NCBI GenBank assembly: GCA_020432165.1
Contig: JAGQGU010000017.1
Span: 1-49,385, forward strand
DNA length: 49,385 nt
Source of the DNA: Thermomicrobiales bacterium
GTDB lineage: Bacteria > Chloroflexota > Chloroflexia > Thermomicrobiales > UBA6265
Direction: 5' to 3'
Shown here: positions 150-8,792 of the stretch, piece after piece
Numbering within the stretch: the stretch's first letter is position 1
Layout of the letters: every line of letters starts with the position of its first letter
Position numbers and translations under genes: made by a program
The notes under the pieces: model-generated
Told to the model about the DNA's origin: nothing
Database searches by the model: none
Seen by the model: only the letters and a program-made list of their open reading frames with translations

Positions 150-1286
150 CTACCGCTTCTTCTTTGTCCTATCGTATTGGGGCTTGCGATCATTTCCGCC
201 GCGCTTCTGCTCGAAGCCGCGCTGGGTGCGCTCAATATCGGGTGCCAGAATCAACGTGATGCGTTCCAGCGAATCGAGCAGGGTTTTCATACCACTACGC
301 AACAATGGCGAAGCCTCGTGGTTGATCATGCGATCATCGAGATAGGCGAGTGTCAGCATCTGGCCTACTCTCTCCACCAGCAGCAATCCGGCCACCGCGG
401 GAACAAGCCGCCGCTGATCCGGACGCAGATGCCGCTGCACGGAGTAGCTTTCGATGACAGCCTCTGTCAGTGCCGCACTCCAGCCCTGCATCTGTATGCT
501 CATCTGGGCGATATCGAGCACCGGTGAACCCACAGCCATGTGTCGCCAGCCAATAATACCGGTGACCATGCGCTCGTCCTCAAGACCCTCGACCAGCACG
601 TTCTCCGGCCAGAGATCGTTGTGCAGTATCACGCTGGTATCGCGCATCTCGGCCTGTTCGTTGCGAATGAGATCGCTGGCGGTCGGCACCATGCGATTAC
701 CGCAACGCAACCACCGGCGGATATCGCGCTCGTCTGCGGCTTTATCACCGAGAATTGGGCGATGCGTCTGCCAGTACTTGCGCACACGTTCCATCGTCTG
801 CTGCATCGTCATCGTTGGCAGATCGGCGCGGTCAACACTTTCGCTGGCCAAATGCGCCTGGGCGATGATGCCTGCAACCTGCGCGATCACATTGTTCGCG
901 TGTGCACTCTCCGGGAGTGGTACGTAAATCGCTTCATCATCCGGAGTGCGGTAGCCGCCAAAACGACCGAGCGCGCGACCGGGTAGCCAGCTCTGCGCCG
1001 AGTAAAGGCAATCTTTAACCTCGGTCGTGCCTGCGACGGGGGAAGGAATCTGCGGGATGCCCAACATCGCAGCCAGCACGCGGTTATACGCCGCTATCTG
1101 GTCGGTGGTCGTTCCTTCCGGCCACTGTCGCAACAGCACATCGCCACCCGGACCAGTCATATGCACAAACGGCCGCGTGCGCGGCACATCGTTGGCACTG
1201 TGACTTCCCGGAATCAGCGTGTCCGTTGCGTCCAGCCAGGCATCCATATCAAATTCAGTAGAGAGGTGTCGGTAATCATGCTCCAT
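150..1286 (-). CDS. APH-fold phosphotransferase-like protein, metal-binding Asp replaced
   Basis: This 378-residue protein belongs to the aminoglycoside phosphotransferase/choline kinase-like fold. The Brenner-type catalytic loop is clear at residues 221-230 (LHNDLWPENV), with catalytic Asp224 and Mg-binding Asn229. The second metal motif, usually I-D-W-E followed by G-x-P-x-x-D-L/I-A, appears here as IIGWRHMAVGSPVLDIA. The aspartate is therefore Gly246, encoded GGC where GAC would be expected. The substrate is unknown, and it may be a weak kinase or a pseudokinase. It lies 20 nt downstream of two amidohydrolase genes in the same direction and is probably cotranscribed with them. The ATG at 1286 has no strong ribosome-binding site, so the start is less certain than the fold. 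Confidence 0.75.
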   Translation of the reverse strand: MEHDYRHLSTEFDMDAWLDATDTLIPGSHSANDVPRTRPFVHMTGPGGDVLLRQWPEGTTTDQIAAYNRVLAAMLGIPQIPSPVAGTTEVKDCLYSAQSWLPGRALGRFGGYRTPDDEAIYVPLPESAHANNVIAQVAGIIAQAHLASESVDRADLPTMTMQQTMERVRKYWQTHRPILGDKAADERDIRRWLRCGNRMVPTASDLIRNEQAEMRDTSVILHNDLWPENVLVEGLEDERMVTGIIGWRHMAVGSPVLDIAQMSIQMQGWSAALTEAVIESYSVQRHLRPDQRRLVPAVAGLLLVERVGQMLTLAYLDDRMINHEASPLLRSGMKTLLDSLERITLILAPDIERTQRGFEQKRGGNDRKPQYDRTKKKR

Positions 1287-1306
1287 AGTGCTGGGAAGTA
1301 TAGACG

Positions 1307-2950
1307 CTATCGCGCCCGATACCCCGGTCCGCGCACCTGCATTCCGGGTAGGGCGCCGGTGTGTGTGCCGTTATCCAGCACCCGCTCGCCATTGACCCAC
1401 ATATCGCGCACGCCAGTGCTGAGATGATGGGGGTCGGTGTAGGTGGCGGTATCGATAATCGTCTCCGGATCGAAGATGATGACATCAGCAAATTGTCCGG
1501 CGCGGAGCAGTCCACGATCTCGCAATCCCAGCCGACTCGCAACAGCGCTACTCGATTTGCGCACGGCGTCCTCCAATGTGATCCATCCATTCTCCCGTAC
1601 AAACCGCCCCAATACGCGTGTGTAAACACCATAGGCGCGGGGATGGAGCAATCCCATCTCCCGCACAAGCTCGGGGTCGACACCGCCCGCATCAGTACTA
1701 AAGGTGATCCACGGTAGCTTGCTCTGCAGCGCCAGATTATCAGTGCTCATGGCCATGTACATCGTGAAGATATCGTGGACATTGGTTTCGAGCAGATAGC
1801 AGATCGCTTCCGGCCAATCGACGCTCAGGTCGGCAGCGACATCGCTCACAAACCAGCCCAGATATTTGCGGATATCTGGATGCTCCGGCTGCGCCAGCAG
1901 GATATTCTCCGGTCCGATCATCAGACCCCAGTTCTCCCACGGCTCCTTCTGATTGACCATGTCATCCTTGATGCGCGCACGAATCTCAGGATTCTGCAGA
2001 TTCTCCAGGCGCTTGCCATCGGCCAGACACCACGGCGGCAGACAGGAGGCGAGCCCGGTGCCTGCACCCTCGTAGGGATACATATCAGCGGTGATATCGA
2101 TCCCCCGCGCTCGCGCCGCATTGACGCCATCGATGATCGTTTGCATCTTCGGCCAGTTCTTCGTACCGATCGCTTTGAGGTGATAGATCTCGCTGGAAAC
2201 ACCCGTTTCCTCTGCAATGCGGAGCATCTCGGCAAAGCCGCTCTCGATTTCATCTCCCTCGCTGCGCATATGGGTGATATGGATACCGTTGTAGGCAGCC
2301 ACCACCTTCATGATCTCAATCAGCTCTTCGGTATTGGTGTAGACATCGGGCGGATAGATGAGGGCGGTTGCGACACCGAATGCACCATCCTCCATGCTCT
2401 CGGCGACCATCTTCTTCATGCTCTGGATGGCATCATCGCTGGCATCGCCCGCTTCCAGGCCCATGCCCCACTGGCGGACGGTGCCGCCGCCAACGAACGA
2501 GCCGAAGTTGACCGAAACGCCCCGTCGCTCGAACTCGTTCAACCAATCGCCGAAGCGGCTCCAACTGCGACCGAGGGCATCCCACTCTTCGTACGCAGCA
2601 TCGCCGATGCGACCGCGCACGTTCTCCCGGAAGGGCATATCGATACGTCCACCATAAGGAGCTGGTGTCCAGGCTTCGCCCATGACTTCGGTGGTGACAC
2701 CCTGGGTGACTTTACTCAGCGAGCGGCCATCGACGAGGAAGGGGATGATGCTATGGCTCTGGATATCGATGAATCCAGGCGAGACCACATGATCGCTGGC
2801 ATCGATAACGACATCCGCGCTGCTGCGGTCGATAGTTCCTGGTGCCTCGATCTGCGCGATCTTGTCACCTGTTATCAGTAGATCGCCATAGAACCAGGCG
2901 TTGCCACTGCCATCGATGATGCGTCCGTTGGTGATGAGTGTAGAGGTCAT
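1307..2950 (-). CDS. N-acyl-D-amino-acid deacylase family amidohydrolase (paralog 1)
   Basis: This 547-residue protein is a full-length member of the D-aminoacylase/COG3653 branch of the amidohydrolase superfamily. The N-terminal small beta domain starts TLITNGRIIDGSG. The barrel carries HITHMRSEGD and the DMYPYEGAGTG segment, and the C-terminal block runs from FSTDAGGVDP through HPRAYGVYTR to the closing ADVIIFDP and VNGERVL. The usual HxH zinc motif after PGFID is replaced: residues 59-67 read GFIDIQSHS, so Gln64 takes the place of the first histidine. The usual G-N-C-G block, which carries the bridging cysteine, is GEAW at 91-94. The substrate is therefore open. It follows a close paralog by 74 nt and precedes a kinase-like gene. 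Confidence 0.85.
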   Translation of the reverse strand: MTSTLITNGRIIDGSGNAWFYGDLLITGDKIAQIEAPGTIDRSSADVVIDASDHVVSPGFIDIQSHSIIPFLVDGRSLSKVTQGVTTEVMGEAWTPAPYGGRIDMPFRENVRGRIGDAAYEEWDALGRSWSRFGDWLNEFERRGVSVNFGSFVGGGTVRQWGMGLEAGDASDDAIQSMKKMVAESMEDGAFGVATALIYPPDVYTNTEELIEIMKVVAAYNGIHITHMRSEGDEIESGFAEMLRIAEETGVSSEIYHLKAIGTKNWPKMQTIIDGVNAARARGIDITADMYPYEGAGTGLASCLPPWCLADGKRLENLQNPEIRARIKDDMVNQKEPWENWGLMIGPENILLAQPEHPDIRKYLGWFVSDVAADLSVDWPEAICYLLETNVHDIFTMYMAMSTDNLALQSKLPWITFSTDAGGVDPELVREMGLLHPRAYGVYTRVLGRFVRENGWITLEDAVRKSSSAVASRLGLRDRGLLRAGQFADVIIFDPETIIDTATYTDPHHLSTGVRDMWVNGERVLDNGTHTGALPGMQVRGPGYRAR

Positions 2951-2959
2951 GGTGTTGCT

Positions 2960-3012
2960 TTCTTTTCGGGCGCATCCTGGATGCGAAGCAGAAGGTATGC
3001 GCCCCTACGTTT
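2960..3012. repeat. CGTAGGGGCG-type palindromic intergenic element
   Basis: On the minus strand this stretch reads ACGTAGGGGCGCATACC, then about 16 bases, then GGATGCGCCC, so the two ends can pair. A related element (ACGTAGGGGCGGATCCC ... GTATCCGCCC) lies at about 42525-42561. It sits in the short spacer between the two deacylase paralogs. Dispersed repeats with a GTAGGGGCG core are familiar from several bacterial genomes, from memory. No function is visible. Confidence 0.5.
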
Positions 3013-3024
3013 CAGAATCGGACT

Positions 3025-4677
3025 CTAGCGCGCCCCTGGCCCGTAAACGCGGGTGCCGGGTGTTGCGCCGGTGTGTTCGCCACTTGCCAGTACCCGCGTG
3101 CCGTTGACCCAGACATCGCGCATACCGACGCTGAGGTGATGTGGATCGGTGTAATCGGCGACATCAATGATTGTCGCGGGATCGAAGATGATGACATCTG
3201 CCTTCATCCCCGGTCGCAATGTGCCCCGATCACGAATGCCGAGTCGTTCCGCTACTGCGCCGGTACCCTTGCGCACAGCGTCCTCCATCGTGATCCAGCC
3301 AAGATCGCGACTGTAATGCCCGAGAATGCGCGGATAGGTGCCATAAGCACGAGGATGGACGAGTCCGCGGGCAGCCATCCAGGCAGGATCGACACCACCC
3401 GCATCGGTGCCCCACTTGATCCATTCCTGTTTCATCTGGATTTCCAGATTCTCTTCGCTCATGCCCAGATACATGGTGAAAATGGCGGAGCGGTCGTTTC
3501 GTAGCAGCCAGAGAATCGCCTCGTTCATCGGCATATTCAACGCTGACATAGCATCGGCAAGCGTTCTTCCCTGGAAACGCTCGCCCAACTCCGGTGTGGC
3601 GAACTCGGCCAGAAGCACGTTCTCGGCTCCGGCGCGATGCGCCATGTGCTCGAACTCGCTCTCCGGATGATCAAGCGCGTAGTCCATCTCATCCAGCATC
3701 TTGCGGCTGATAGCAGGATCATCCAGGCTCTGTTGCAGTAGCCCACCTTCCGCCGCCCAGGCCGGTACCGATGCCGCCAGGCCGGTTCCCGATCCGCGAT
3801 AGGGATACATATCTGCGGCGACATCAATGCCTTGCGCGCGGGCTTCGGTGATGCGCGCGATGACTGCGGGCATTTGGTGCCAGCTTGGTCGACCCGCTGC
3901 CTTGAGGTGATAGATTTCGCTGATGACACCAGTATCCCGACCGATACCGATTGTTTCCTCCAACGCTGGCAGTATCCGCTCGCCTTCACTGCGCATATGG
4001 GTGATATGGATGCCGTTATAGGCGGCCACTACCTCCATGATCGAGGTTAGTTCGGCGGTCGATGAGTAGATATTCGGTGGATAGATGAGTGCGGTCGCGA
4101 CGCCGAACGCGCCATCTTCCATGCTCTCGGCGGTTGCCTTGCGCATGGCGGCGAGTTGATCAGCATCGGGCTCACCTTGCATCTGCCCCATACCGAACTC
4201 ACGAATGGTGCCCCCGCCCACGAACGAGCCGATATTGACTGACACACCGTGTGTTTCCAGATCGCGCAACCAGTGACCGAAGCGGGTCCAGCTACGCGCT
4301 TGCTCGTCCCACCGGGCTTTTTCGTCGCCTTCCAGCCGATGTACCAGTGCGATGGCCCACGGGTCGACAATGCCACCACCGAACGGAGCCGGTGTCCAGA
4401 ACTCACCCATGATCTCGGTGGTGACCCCCTGCGTTACCTTACTCAGGGATCGACCATCCAGCAGGAGTGGCAGAATCGAATGGCTCTGGATATCAATGAA
4501 CCCCGGCGCGACCACATGATCTCTCGCATCGATAACCGTATCCGCGCGCTCGGGAGAAATGCTTCCGGGTGGCTCGATGGCACTGATCGTATCGTCGGCA
4601 AAGAGGAGGTCGGCGTAAAACCATGGATTACCGGTACCATCCATGATGCGGCCATTGGTAATGAGTGTGGATGCCAT
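3025..4677 (-). CDS. N-acyl-D-amino-acid deacylase family amidohydrolase (paralog 2)
   Basis: This 550-residue paralog of the adjacent gene is alike along its whole length and has the same domain order. It shows the same unusual substitutions: GFIDIQSHS at 59-67 (Gln64 instead of the first His of HxH) and GEFW at 91-94 instead of the cysteine-bearing G-N-C-G block. HITHMRSEGE, DMYPYRGSGTG and WGTDAGGVDP are preserved. Shared departures in both copies argue for a distinct subfamily and not for random decay. The start ATG at 4677 follows GGGAGCAGAT, a plausible ribosome-binding site. It is the first gene of the minus-strand run deacylase, deacylase, kinase-like. It probably acts on N-acylated amino-acid or imide-like amides in the cytoplasm; no signal peptide is visible. 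Confidence 0.85.
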   Translation of the reverse strand: MASTLITNGRIMDGTGNPWFYADLLFADDTISAIEPPGSISPERADTVIDARDHVVAPGFIDIQSHSILPLLLDGRSLSKVTQGVTTEIMGEFWTPAPFGGGIVDPWAIALVHRLEGDEKARWDEQARSWTRFGHWLRDLETHGVSVNIGSFVGGGTIREFGMGQMQGEPDADQLAAMRKATAESMEDGAFGVATALIYPPNIYSSTAELTSIMEVVAAYNGIHITHMRSEGERILPALEETIGIGRDTGVISEIYHLKAAGRPSWHQMPAVIARITEARAQGIDVAADMYPYRGSGTGLAASVPAWAAEGGLLQQSLDDPAISRKMLDEMDYALDHPESEFEHMAHRAGAENVLLAEFATPELGERFQGRTLADAMSALNMPMNEAILWLLRNDRSAIFTMYLGMSEENLEIQMKQEWIKWGTDAGGVDPAWMAARGLVHPRAYGTYPRILGHYSRDLGWITMEDAVRKGTGAVAERLGIRDRGTLRPGMKADVIIFDPATIIDVADYTDPHHLSVGMRDVWVNGTRVLASGEHTGATPGTRVYGPGAR

Positions 4678-4944: not shown

Positions 4945-5136
4945 ATGACGACTGAAGAACAAGAAGCCGCCGTGCACACACTGCTGCGCGCATTGCAGAT
5001 CGAGATCCCGGCGGATCGTATCCCTGCACTCACCGTCGCTTACTTCACCGCGATGGCGCAATCGCAACAGCTTCGCGGTGATGTCACCCGGACTCCATCA
5101 GCTTCTGCATTCGATGCAGCATGGGATAGCAAGTAA
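4945..5136 (+). CDS. Small GatC/AtzG-like amidase partner (putative)
   Basis: This 63-residue acidic, probably helical protein is encoded directly before an amidase. Its TAA stop overlaps the amidase ATG by one base (TAATG), which implies translational coupling. Size, position and composition resemble the DUF4089/AtzG type of small subunit that pairs with AtzE-type amidases, and more distantly GatC of GatCAB. The sequence match I can judge by eye is weak, so the assignment rests mainly on context. The start follows an AGGGG-type ribosome-binding site. If correct, it would stabilise or help shape the active site of its partner amidase. It could also be an unrelated small protein. Confidence 0.6.
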   Translation: MTTEEQEAAVHTLLRALQIEIPADRIPALTVAYFTAMAQSQQLRGDVTRTPSASAFDAAWDSK

Positions 5137-6512
5137 TGCCAGCAACCAATCCGAACCCGGCTCCACGTACTATTCGGCGGACACTGCACGATCTGGCCAC
5201 GCATGAAATCTCGACACAGGCACTCATGGCCGAGATTCTCACGTGTATGCAAGAGACGGATGATGCGGTCATGGCCTGGCTGGATGTACGTCCCAAATAC
5301 CTCATGGAGACGGCCGAGGCACAGGATCGTCGCCGTATGCTGAGGATGCAGCCAACGCCGCTCTTCGGCATCCCTGTTGGTGTGAAGGACATCATTGATC
5401 TGGCTGGTTATCAAACAGTCTGCAATATGGAAGCGCGTGAAGATGTCGACAAAGCCGAGCGAGATGCAGTAGTCGTGCATGCATTGCGTCGCACCGGCGT
5501 GATCTATGTAGGGAAGACGGTCACACAAGAGGCGGCGGCGGGTATCTTCAGCGATCCCTGTCGGAATCCATGGGATACAGAGCATATCCCTGGTGGATCC
5601 AGCGGTGGTAGTGCTGCTGCTATCGCGAATGGTACCGCCCTTGGTGCGTTTGGTACCGACACCGGCGGCAGTATTCGCATTCCGTCATCGTTGTGCGGTG
5701 TAACCGGTCTCAAGCCGACGTACGGACGACTCTCTCTGGAAGGGATCTTCCCGCTCTCGGCCAGTCTGGATACGGTTGGTCCGTTGGCGAACACAGTCGC
5801 AGATTGTATGGCGTTGTACCTCGGTATGCAGGGCAAGGGGAACGAGATTCCGACGATGTGGGATCGGTTCCCGGAGGATGAAGCATCGCTGAAGGGCGTG
5901 CGCATTGGCGTCCCTGGCGGTTTCTTTGCAGAGCGCATTCAGCCAGAGGTGACTGTAGCCTGGCAGCGTGCTATCGCGCATGCCGAGCGGCTTGGTGCGG
6001 AAATTGTGGATTGCGTGTGGGAGGATGCCGCCGCAGCCCGGATCGCCGCCTCGCAGATTATCCGCATCGAATGTGGTCAGGTTCATCGCGATCTGCTGGT
6101 TTCCGCCCCCGAGATGATGGGCGAAACGCTCCGAGAACGCGTTGAACTTGGCGTCATCTTGCCAGTAGATGTCTATTTTGCTGCGATTGCGGCTCGCCAG
6201 CGGGCAAAGCAGAGTATTGCCAAGCTCTATGCCGAACATCGGCTGGATGCCATGCTGGTGCCGACCACTCCGGTTACCGCACCGAGGGCGGGGGAGACGT
6301 CGGTTTCCTACACCGATGGCACTATCGAAGAGACAGGGGCGGCGTTGACGCGTCTGACGCAGCCGTGGAATGCCACCGGTCAGCCTGTCTTCGCCCTGCC
6401 CGCGGGTCAGGACGATCGTGGGCTTCCCATCGGCCTCAGCCTTGTTGGCCGGCCAGATGATGAATGGCATCTGGCCGATATCGCGCATGCATTGGAGTTG
6501 GCGATTAGCTAA
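5136..6512 (+). CDS. Amidase signature family hydrolase (AtzE/GatA-like)
   Basis: This 458-residue amidase has the complete Ser-cisSer-Lys triad of the signature family. Lys84 lies in GIPVGVKDIID, the cis-serine is Ser155/156 in PGGSSGGSAAA, and the nucleophile is Ser179 in GTDTGGSIRIPSS. The family hydrolyses carboxamides; members include GatA, AtzE and allophanate hydrolases. The lack of a full gatB/gatC neighbourhood, and a small upstream partner translationally coupled to it, favour a catabolic AtzE-like enzyme over the tRNA amidotransferase subunit. It is cytoplasmic, with no signal peptide. A structured repeat element follows 35 nt after its stop. The exact substrate cannot be read from sequence. 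Confidence 0.88.
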   Translation: MPATNPNPAPRTIRRTLHDLATHEISTQALMAEILTCMQETDDAVMAWLDVRPKYLMETAEAQDRRRMLRMQPTPLFGIPVGVKDIIDLAGYQTVCNMEAREDVDKAERDAVVVHALRRTGVIYVGKTVTQEAAAGIFSDPCRNPWDTEHIPGGSSGGSAAAIANGTALGAFGTDTGGSIRIPSSLCGVTGLKPTYGRLSLEGIFPLSASLDTVGPLANTVADCMALYLGMQGKGNEIPTMWDRFPEDEASLKGVRIGVPGGFFAERIQPEVTVAWQRAIAHAERLGAEIVDCVWEDAAAARIAASQIIRIECGQVHRDLLVSAPEMMGETLRERVELGVILPVDVYFAAIAARQRAKQSIAKLYAEHRLDAMLVPTTPVTAPRAGETSVSYTDGTIEETGAALTRLTQPWNATGQPVFALPAGQDDRGLPIGLSLVGRPDDEWHLADIAHALELAIS

Positions 6513-7756: not shown

Positions 7757-7785
7757 TTGCCAAATCAGAACAAATGTTCTATTCT
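7757..7785 (+). promoter_or_regulatory. Sigma-70-type promoter with embedded GAAC-N4-GTTC (LexA/Cheo-like) box
   Basis: A -35 TTGCCA (7757-7762), a 17-bp spacer and a -10 TATTCT (7780-7785) precede the gene at 7803. Inside the spacer lies the perfect palindrome AGAAC-AAAT-GTTCT (7767-7780). Its core GAAC-N4-GTTC equals the consensus of Gram-positive LexA operators. A repressor bound there would block RNA polymerase. That LexA is the ligand is inferred only from the motif. Confidence 0.6.
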
Positions 7786-7802
7786 GAATCCAGGGGGGCC
7801 AT

Positions 7803-8021
7803 ATGGACGCAGCCGAGAACCACCAAATTGAGTCTGAAGAATTCGAGCGTTGGACCTGTGATCGTCACGATCCGCCAATACTGCTCGCGATGGTGGACGC
7901 TGCTGGACACCTGCACATTAAGGTCCGCAATCGAGACTGGTACGTGACGGATTTTACTACTGTCACTGCTACCTGTCCCAAATGTGGCGCTGTGCACACC
8001 AGGAAGTTCGCTGGTCGCTGA
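7803..8021 (+). CDS. Small zinc-ribbon-like protein (CxxH...CxxC)
   Basis: This 72-residue protein has four well-placed potential zinc ligands: Cys19 and His22 (WTCDRHDPP) and Cys58 and Cys61 (ATCPKCGAV). Between them lie beta-prone stretches (LLAMVDAAGHLHIKVRNRDW). The pattern suggests a single compact zinc ribbon, somewhat like phage Com-type proteins. It would probably bind nucleic acid or protein, but no specific family is recognised. The ATG follows a strong AGGGGGG ribosome-binding site. It sits directly behind a promoter bearing a LexA-like box, and 55 nt before a sigma-region-2-like gene, with which it may form a two-gene unit. Confidence 0.7.
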   Translation: MDAAENHQIESEEFERWTCDRHDPPILLAMVDAAGHLHIKVRNRDWYVTDFTTVTATCPKCGAVHTRKFAGR

Positions 8022-8076
8022 AGAGAGAATTGAGCTCCAGAGAGCCTGGGAATCGGGAGCAAAGGAGCTCAATCAC

Positions 8077-8727
8077 ATGGCACTCTATACAACACCGACC
8101 TTACGGGAGCGATTGCACAGCCACTATCACAAGGGAGAGCGCACACGATATCCGCTCGATCTGCCACCAACCGGCCGCCTGCCTCAATCGCAGCTTCACC
8201 AGGTTCACGAGCTGGCGTCGAGAGCACACGCCGGCGATACCGAGTGTCGTGATTTGCTCTATCTCTCGCTGCAACCACGGCTTGTCCGTATCGGCAATAT
8301 CCTGAAGCCATGGCCGAACACTCCCACGCTCATCGGCATCTGGGATTACGACGATGTGGAGCAGGAATGTTATCTGATCTTTGTCGAACTCCTGGAGACC
8401 TGGGATGGTGAACTTCCCTTCGTGCCCTATCTGCTTGGTCGCTTCGTTTGGCGACTACGCGACAGAATCCTGCGCGGTATCGGCAAGCCACGGGCACCGC
8501 GCGGCATGATCCCGGTGCCGGCAAGCAGCATGCTCGCCTTGTTGGTGGAGTCTGACCAGCCGGAGCAGGCCGCAATCGCTCGCGAGATGTTGCAAGACCT
8601 TGTCCTTAAGCTGGCAGACCTCTTTGAGCTTCAAGTCGAGTCCGACTCTATCCTCCACTTGATCAGTCTAGTGCGGCAGTTGCGACCGGATCTGAGTAGT
8701 GACATCTCTGGAGTGGACGCTGCCTGA
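8077..8727 (+). CDS. Sigma-70 region-2-like / helix-turn-helix protein, function unknown
   Basis: The protein is about 216 residues. The part from about residue 35 to 110 resembles sigma-factor region 2. RDLLYLSLQPRLVRIGNIL is followed by a -D-D-V-E-Q-E-C- segment, as in the D-x-x-Q-E region-2 signature, and a helix FVPYLLGRFVWRLRDRILRG. No region 4 is recognisable; the C-terminus is helical and leucine-rich. It could be a divergent sigma factor, an anti-sigma partner, or a region-2-only regulator like those on mobile elements. I chose the ATG at 8077 because AAGGAG lies 9 nt upstream. The longer frame from 7984 would overlap the preceding gene. Confidence 0.65.
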   Translation: MALYTTPTLRERLHSHYHKGERTRYPLDLPPTGRLPQSQLHQVHELASRAHAGDTECRDLLYLSLQPRLVRIGNILKPWPNTPTLIGIWDYDDVEQECYLIFVELLETWDGELPFVPYLLGRFVWRLRDRILRGIGKPRAPRGMIPVPASSMLALLVESDQPEQAAIAREMLQDLVLKLADLFELQVESDSILHLISLVRQLRPDLSSDISGVDAA

Positions 8728-8792
8728 TGAGATTCGACAATTCGCCCGATATTCAGGACAATGCAGGCAGTGACCGGGTGAAGGAGAGATTG

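Follow-up and report, generated by a model that had tools for sequence, protein, structure and literature searches.

A conserved zinc-ribbon and sigma-like gene pair under probable LexA control in the Thermomicrobiales

The window, by which we mean the entire 49,385-nt stretch analysed here, is contig C75 of a 3.2-Mb genome in 105 contigs. The locus under study consists of a promoter, a palindromic box, two genes and the RNA structures between them, as follows.

7757..7785, plus strand: promoter TTGCCA-N17-TATTCT of the window's own genus, with the box inside its spacer; from sequence, and from the same layout in the congener G030.
7767..7780, no strand: putative LexA box AGAACAAATGTTCT; from sequence, shared with SOS genes and kept in orthologous promoters.
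7803..8021, plus strand: gene for a 72-aa zinc-ribbon protein, WTCDRH...CPKCG; conserved in the order, with dN/dS well below 1.
8029..8073, plus strand: predicted 10-bp stem AUUGAGCUCC/GGAGCUCAAU, pairing 8029-8038 with 8064-8073; from folding and Shine-Dalgarno (SD) complementarity.
8032..8046, plus strand: predicted RNA hairpin GA-GCUC-CAGA-GAGC-C, GAGCUCCAGAGAGCC; of a type found at nearly all loci compared.
8077..8727, plus strand: gene for a 216-aa ECF-like sigma protein with region 2 (about residues 37-138) and without region 4; from profiles and a structural model.

The first-pass annotation had drawn attention to a perfect palindrome within a 17-bp promoter spacer, followed by genes for a CxxH...CxxC mini protein, which is the 72-aa zinc ribbon, and for a sigma-region-2-like protein. 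The hexamers are at 7757-7762 and 7780-7785, and the palindrome AGAACAAATGTTCT is the sole such site in the window, with 0.12 matches expected in shuffled sequence even when up to 2 mismatches are allowed. For the sigma-like gene the most likely start is ATG 8077, which is preceded by an AAAGGAG ribosome site and is also used in G030, rather than the GTG at 7984. The stop codon of this gene overlaps the start of the next open reading frame (8720-8740), which is cystathionine gamma-synthase-like and is also the neighbour in G030 and G029.

GAAC-N4-GTTC is the LexA box of the Bacillus and Mycobacterium regulons (PMC3323433), and the first question is whether the same can be said of this genome. 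Its lexA gene (G000:C44; 171 bits to TIGR00498) has GAACAAGTGTTC 69 bp upstream, and its recA gene is directly preceded by GAACATTCGTTC, behind a TTGACC...TACACT promoter. The AT-centred form GAACANNTGTTC occurs at 15 sites in the genome, as against 1 for the reversed control pattern, and the genes that start beside these sites include those for a Y-family polymerase (PF00817), a SRAP protein, a UvrD-like helicase and RuvB. Thus, the box is present before lexA, recA and a translesion polymerase gene alike, the three places where the first-pass annotation had proposed to look, and the identity that it had claimed with the Gram-positive LexA core is borne out. Moreover, the concern that lexA and recA might use a different box falls away, since both carry this one. 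In the wider family, GAAC-N4-GTTC lies upstream of lexA in all 22 of the 22 genes with a readable start. The bare pattern, taken genome-wide, is mildly enriched (74 sites, the reversed control giving 58), and because the enrichment is no more than mild, our LexA argument rests on the AT-centred form, the genes beside it and conservation. From this evidence we conclude that GAAC-N4-GTTC is the LexA box of this genome. The regulon resembles those of Bacillus and Mycobacterium in having the same box and the same core genes, and differs in that the Thermomicrobiales motif is defined here and in that it includes a sigma-factor operon (PMC3323433). The same paper lists Chloroflexi (Sphaerobacteraceae) among the multi-chromosome groups, shows the alpha- and beta-Proteobacteria, and describes other groups as limited by the want of a defined motif or of genomes; a LexA box is now defined for a little-studied and mostly uncultured lineage.

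The box of the gene pair is itself conserved. The sigma-like protein was matched in 23 of 32 family genomes, and among the 18 orthologous pairs with enough upstream sequence the exact box stands at 16, the remaining two (L015 and L022) having it with one mismatch; the tail probability is about 3e-27 from the site density of the genome, with relatedness ignored. A palindrome missing from orthologous promoters had been named as grounds for giving up the LexA reading, and with 16 of 18 exact boxes that reading survives. The promoter as first described is a different matter: the 17-bp spacer with its palindrome is present, but it is restricted to the window and G030 (TTGCCA-N17-TATTAT) and does not stand as the conserved promoter of the family. 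That is a near-consensus TTGACA-N17/18-TAGAAT or TACACT lying upstream of the box, which then falls from a few to about 14 bp past the -10. Both layouts, box in the spacer and box after the -10, would fit repression by LexA.

Of the 158 genomes of the class, 32 have the zinc ribbon, in a single copy each, and all 32 belong to one order, throughout which the zinc-ribbon and sigma genes are adjacent. An alignment search with the zinc ribbon gave, as named relatives, Chloroflexota metagenome assemblies, mostly labelled Thermomicrobiales or Chloroflexia. A GAAC-N4-GTTC box stands about 1.3-1.5 kb ahead of the zinc-ribbon gene in families f3 and f5 and also in G024, a member of the window's family (at L113 it is GC-centred, GAACGCGCGTTC), and the gene in between is dinB, for DNA polymerase IV (IMS and IMS_C domains). 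The order there is box, dinB, zinc ribbon and then sigma wherever the contig is long enough to tell, and the named loci L154 and L155 have the same box-dinB-zinc ribbon order. In most of the window's family the pair has its own box and no intervening dinB. Because other families of the order have dinB, zinc ribbon and sigma together behind the box, we infer that the pair probably originated in a translesion-polymerase operon and was separated from it later, the direction of change being part of that inference. As to a phage origin of the pair, tblastn gave no match for either protein among 50,697 phage records, and the idea was dropped. Taken together, box, regulon and conservation make LexA control of the pair highly probable.

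The zinc-ribbon alignment has an invariant R-W-C...C-P-x-C...H and is predicted to be all-beta; a fold search with the model gave no significant match. Most of the family has C-x-C as the first zinc knuckle, but the window's genus and G016 have C-x2-H, likely a changed metal ligand. At one locus (L013, in G021) the zinc-ribbon gene is decayed, with an in-frame stop and the middle part lost, and the box and a region-4-bearing sigma gene are intact; this could be an assembly error.

Between the two genes there is a recurrent RNA element. In its general form it is a 15-mer, [GC]AGC-N-C-NNNA-G-N'-GC[CA], that is, a stem of 4 bp around a 4-nt loop whose last base is A, sometimes as a tandem pair, and it was found in 25 of 26 intergenic loci by a search pattern that left the variable pair free to mismatch. 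In 32 of the 33 elements the two bases of that pair are complementary (18 G-C, 12 U-A, 2 C-G), where independent columns would lead one to expect about 45%, with the proviso that the 33 elements come from related sequences and are not independent events. Matches to the form GAGCTCC-RRA-GAGCC numbered 10 in 32 genomes, all of them at this locus and just one of them in the window's genome, and on this confinement a dispersed repeat was rejected; the GCGC form of the hairpin occurs elsewhere at near background. Nor is it a known Rfam element, the matches being weak ones to microRNA models, far under the gathering scores. In the window, the perfect 10-bp stem would hide the Shine-Dalgarno of the sigma gene (-21.9 kcal/mol, z -2.5), and since the hairpin at 8032-8046 overlaps it, the two structures are mutually exclusive. 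Within the window's family each element pairs better with its own SD than with swapped ones (permutation p 1.5e-4), a signal to which close relatives, and short intergenic regions in which the compared stretches overlap, may have contributed; no such excess was seen in the other families of the order (p 0.15). G008, which is without the zinc ribbon, is also without the canonical hairpin, and G021 keeps a similar hairpin despite its decayed zinc ribbon.

An arrangement of this kind has a counterpart in phage Mu, where Com, a small zinc protein, activates translation of mom through a hairpin beside a translation-blocking structure (PMC6483171). Common to the two systems are a gene for a small zinc-binding protein directly upstream of its target, actual or presumed, and a hairpin near a structure that blocks, or would block, translation. 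The core of the Com RNA selected by SELEX is GAG(N)2CC(N)2-3GAG (PMC6483171), and the window element holds GAGCUCCAGAGAG, which matches it as GAG(N)2CC(N)3GAG; the strict motif is present in 13 of 26 loci, against 0.9 expected in shuffles and a maximum of 5 in 400, although it was taken from that paper only after the hairpin had been noticed. The targets differ, mom being a phage DNA-modification gene and the target here a sigma gene, and so do the proteins: Com has CxxC...CPRC in 62 aa, and the zinc ribbon has CxC or CxxH and then additional strands ahead of CPxC. Homology of the two proteins was tried and found unsupported. No member reached the cut-off of Zn_ribbon_Com (PF10122), the best being the G024 zinc ribbon at 19.2 bits against 22.9, and profile comparison with hhalign aligned 14-15 columns, the CPRC knuckle and nothing more. 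Since homology is unsupported, we limit the claim to saying that the zinc ribbon may work like Com, not that it is Com. It is the conserved intergenic hairpin that leads us to suggest that the zinc protein helps to switch on the sigma gene, and Com-like control of sigma translation is put forward tentatively, as an analogy that may or may not hold.

Another account of the hairpins, and one that is about as probable as Com-like control, is mere translational coupling, in which the ribosome, on completing the zinc-ribbon gene, opens the stem and the zinc ribbon acts elsewhere, for example by binding DNA or the polymerase. The unsupported homology to Com agrees with it, as does the position of the window stem, which begins about 8 nt past the stop codon of the zinc-ribbon gene. 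Less easily accommodated are the conservation of the hairpin in sequence (the GAGC...GCC flanks and the A at the loop end), which goes beyond pairing alone, and the intergenic regions of 100-290 nt in many orthologues, which are long for simple coupling.

The sigma-like protein calls for caution of a different kind. Its orthologues are readily placed: TIGR02937 was matched in 18 of 23 members (best 6.3e-16) and PF08281, the helix-turn-helix of region 4, in 16 of 23, these lying outside the window's genus (best E 1.2e-7); orthologues also match PF07638 and PF04542, and ECF sigma sequences in the PDB were matched at 8.6e-9. Very likely, then, they function as sigma factors of ECF-like type, having both region 2 and region 4. 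The window protein by itself gave weak scores and no sigma-family match at useful significance. The profile searches proposed earlier for both proteins support the sigma identity of the orthologues but yield nothing useful for the window protein itself and leave the zinc ribbon under the PF10122 cut-off. The label of sigma-region-2-like is nonetheless upheld by structure. The model of the window protein has a mean pLDDT of 77, with region 2 mostly above 90, and superposes on region 2 of many sigma factors; VIA-align gave Z 10.8 and rmsd 2.5 over 94 residues against E. coli sigmaE, and Z of about 10 at 2.2-2.8 A against region 2 of sigmaE, SigC, CnrH and SigK, values to be read with the caveat that unrelated helical bundles may also reach Z of about 10. 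The model also aligns to region 2 of SigW.

Region 4 is absent in all three congeners that bear the gene (L001-L003), and a search of all frames turned up no trace of it, so that a frameshifted region 4 in the window's genus was rejected. The gene is under purifying selection in this genus, with dN 0.30 in region 2 and 0.64 in the C-terminus, dS being near saturation. On these data, whether the window's own protein has sigma function is about an even call. It is conceivable, if somewhat doubtful, that the pair is SOS-controlled but that, in the window's genus, the sigma-like protein has ceased to be a sigma factor and, binding RNA polymerase by its region 2, inhibits or redirects the housekeeping holoenzyme during damage. 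Loss of region 4 without a remnant, the tighter constraint on region 2 and the retention of the LexA box all point that way; however, the orthologues that bear region 4 resemble ordinary ECF-type sigma factors, and another protein could supply the missing region.

Zinc anti-sigma factors are frequent partners of ECF sigma factors, and the adjacent, co-conserved genes might suggest that the zinc ribbon binds the sigma protein as its anti-sigma or co-sigma factor. We consider this unlikely: the HxxxCxxC motif is absent from the zinc-ribbon alignment, the predicted fold is an all-beta ribbon, anti-sigma genes usually follow the sigma gene and here the zinc ribbon is encoded first, and the conserved hairpin is left unaccounted for. 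A chance origin of the palindrome, with the pair having nothing to do with SOS, has the mild enrichment of the bare pattern in its favour, but this is very improbable and was rejected in the face of a box kept in orthologous promoters, the linkage to dinB, an AT-centred form that is strongly enriched and the lexA promoters of the family.

The reading that we prefer, LexA control of an operon encoding the zinc ribbon and an ECF-derived sigma protein, is a likely one. The box predicts that in the undamaged cell LexA would sit over the promoter and repress the pair, and that upon DNA damage RecA-stimulated cleavage of LexA would free it. The transcript would give the zinc ribbon first, with the ribosome site of the sigma gene presumably buried in a stem that competes with the small conserved hairpin; by hypothesis, the zinc ribbon, or the ribosome translating its gene, opens the switch and the sigma protein is made. 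It would then bind RNA polymerase via region 2 and turn transcription towards a second group of damage genes. In the window's genus, because region 4 has been lost, the action would be more restricted, to -10 contacts alone, to work with a partner, or to modulation of the polymerase. An order-wide two-step damage switch, with LexA acting on transcription and a Com-like zinc ribbon then unlocking sigma translation, is a speculative extension of this scheme; if true, it would provide a delayed, threshold-dependent second SOS wave, with the sigma factor reduced to a region-2-only protein in one genus.

The SOS response is usually viewed as one repressor acting straight on repair genes. A chromosomal sigma factor apparently under LexA across an order, and dinB-linked in part of it, would make SOS a cascade, in which DNA damage would induce a transcription-redirecting protein along with the repair genes, and control of sigma translation by a small zinc protein would be of a kind that is otherwise familiar from phage Mu Com. 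A literature search of open-licence papers found no report of this operon, and the nearest likenesses are partial. UviA of Clostridium perfringens bacteriocin plasmids is a sigma factor whose gene is linked to induction by UV and has a putative LexA site (PMC4459074, PMC4885068), and so shares with our pair an alternative sigma factor gene with a LexA-type site in its regulatory region. It is, however, plasmid-borne, drives a bacteriocin gene and belongs to a different sigma subgroup, whereas the pair here is chromosomal and partly dinB-linked; its description has no zinc-ribbon partner or intergenic hairpin (PMC4459074, PMC4885068). SigG of Mycobacterium tuberculosis is likewise a damage-linked alternative sigma factor, described as induced by DNA damage, the induction in our case being predicted from the box. 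It is assigned to the RecA-independent damage response, the sigG mutant is no more damage-sensitive, and a zinc-ribbon operon is absent from the passages of the paper that deal with it (PMC3776920).

Elsewhere in the genome, two further loci with paired LexA-type boxes were noted. At G000:C67:29693-29759 (L047), boxes 55 bp apart precede the gene for a 74-aa protein that has no Pfam match and looks like one membrane segment (MTDLLLNSFLVLLTILFGAMAYYPLF...); it is a candidate for an SOS inhibitor of cell division of the SidA or YneA kind. At G000:C92:90868-90910 (L053), a DnaN-like gene is separated by two boxes, 29 bp apart, from the gene for a 186-aa protein that has no Pfam match and may be a LexA-controlled recombination mediator. 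Finally, the window carries at 150-4677 two adjacent and similar amidohydrolase genes, each for about 550 aa and apparently a tandem duplication, with an amidase-like gene adjoining them at 5136-6512.
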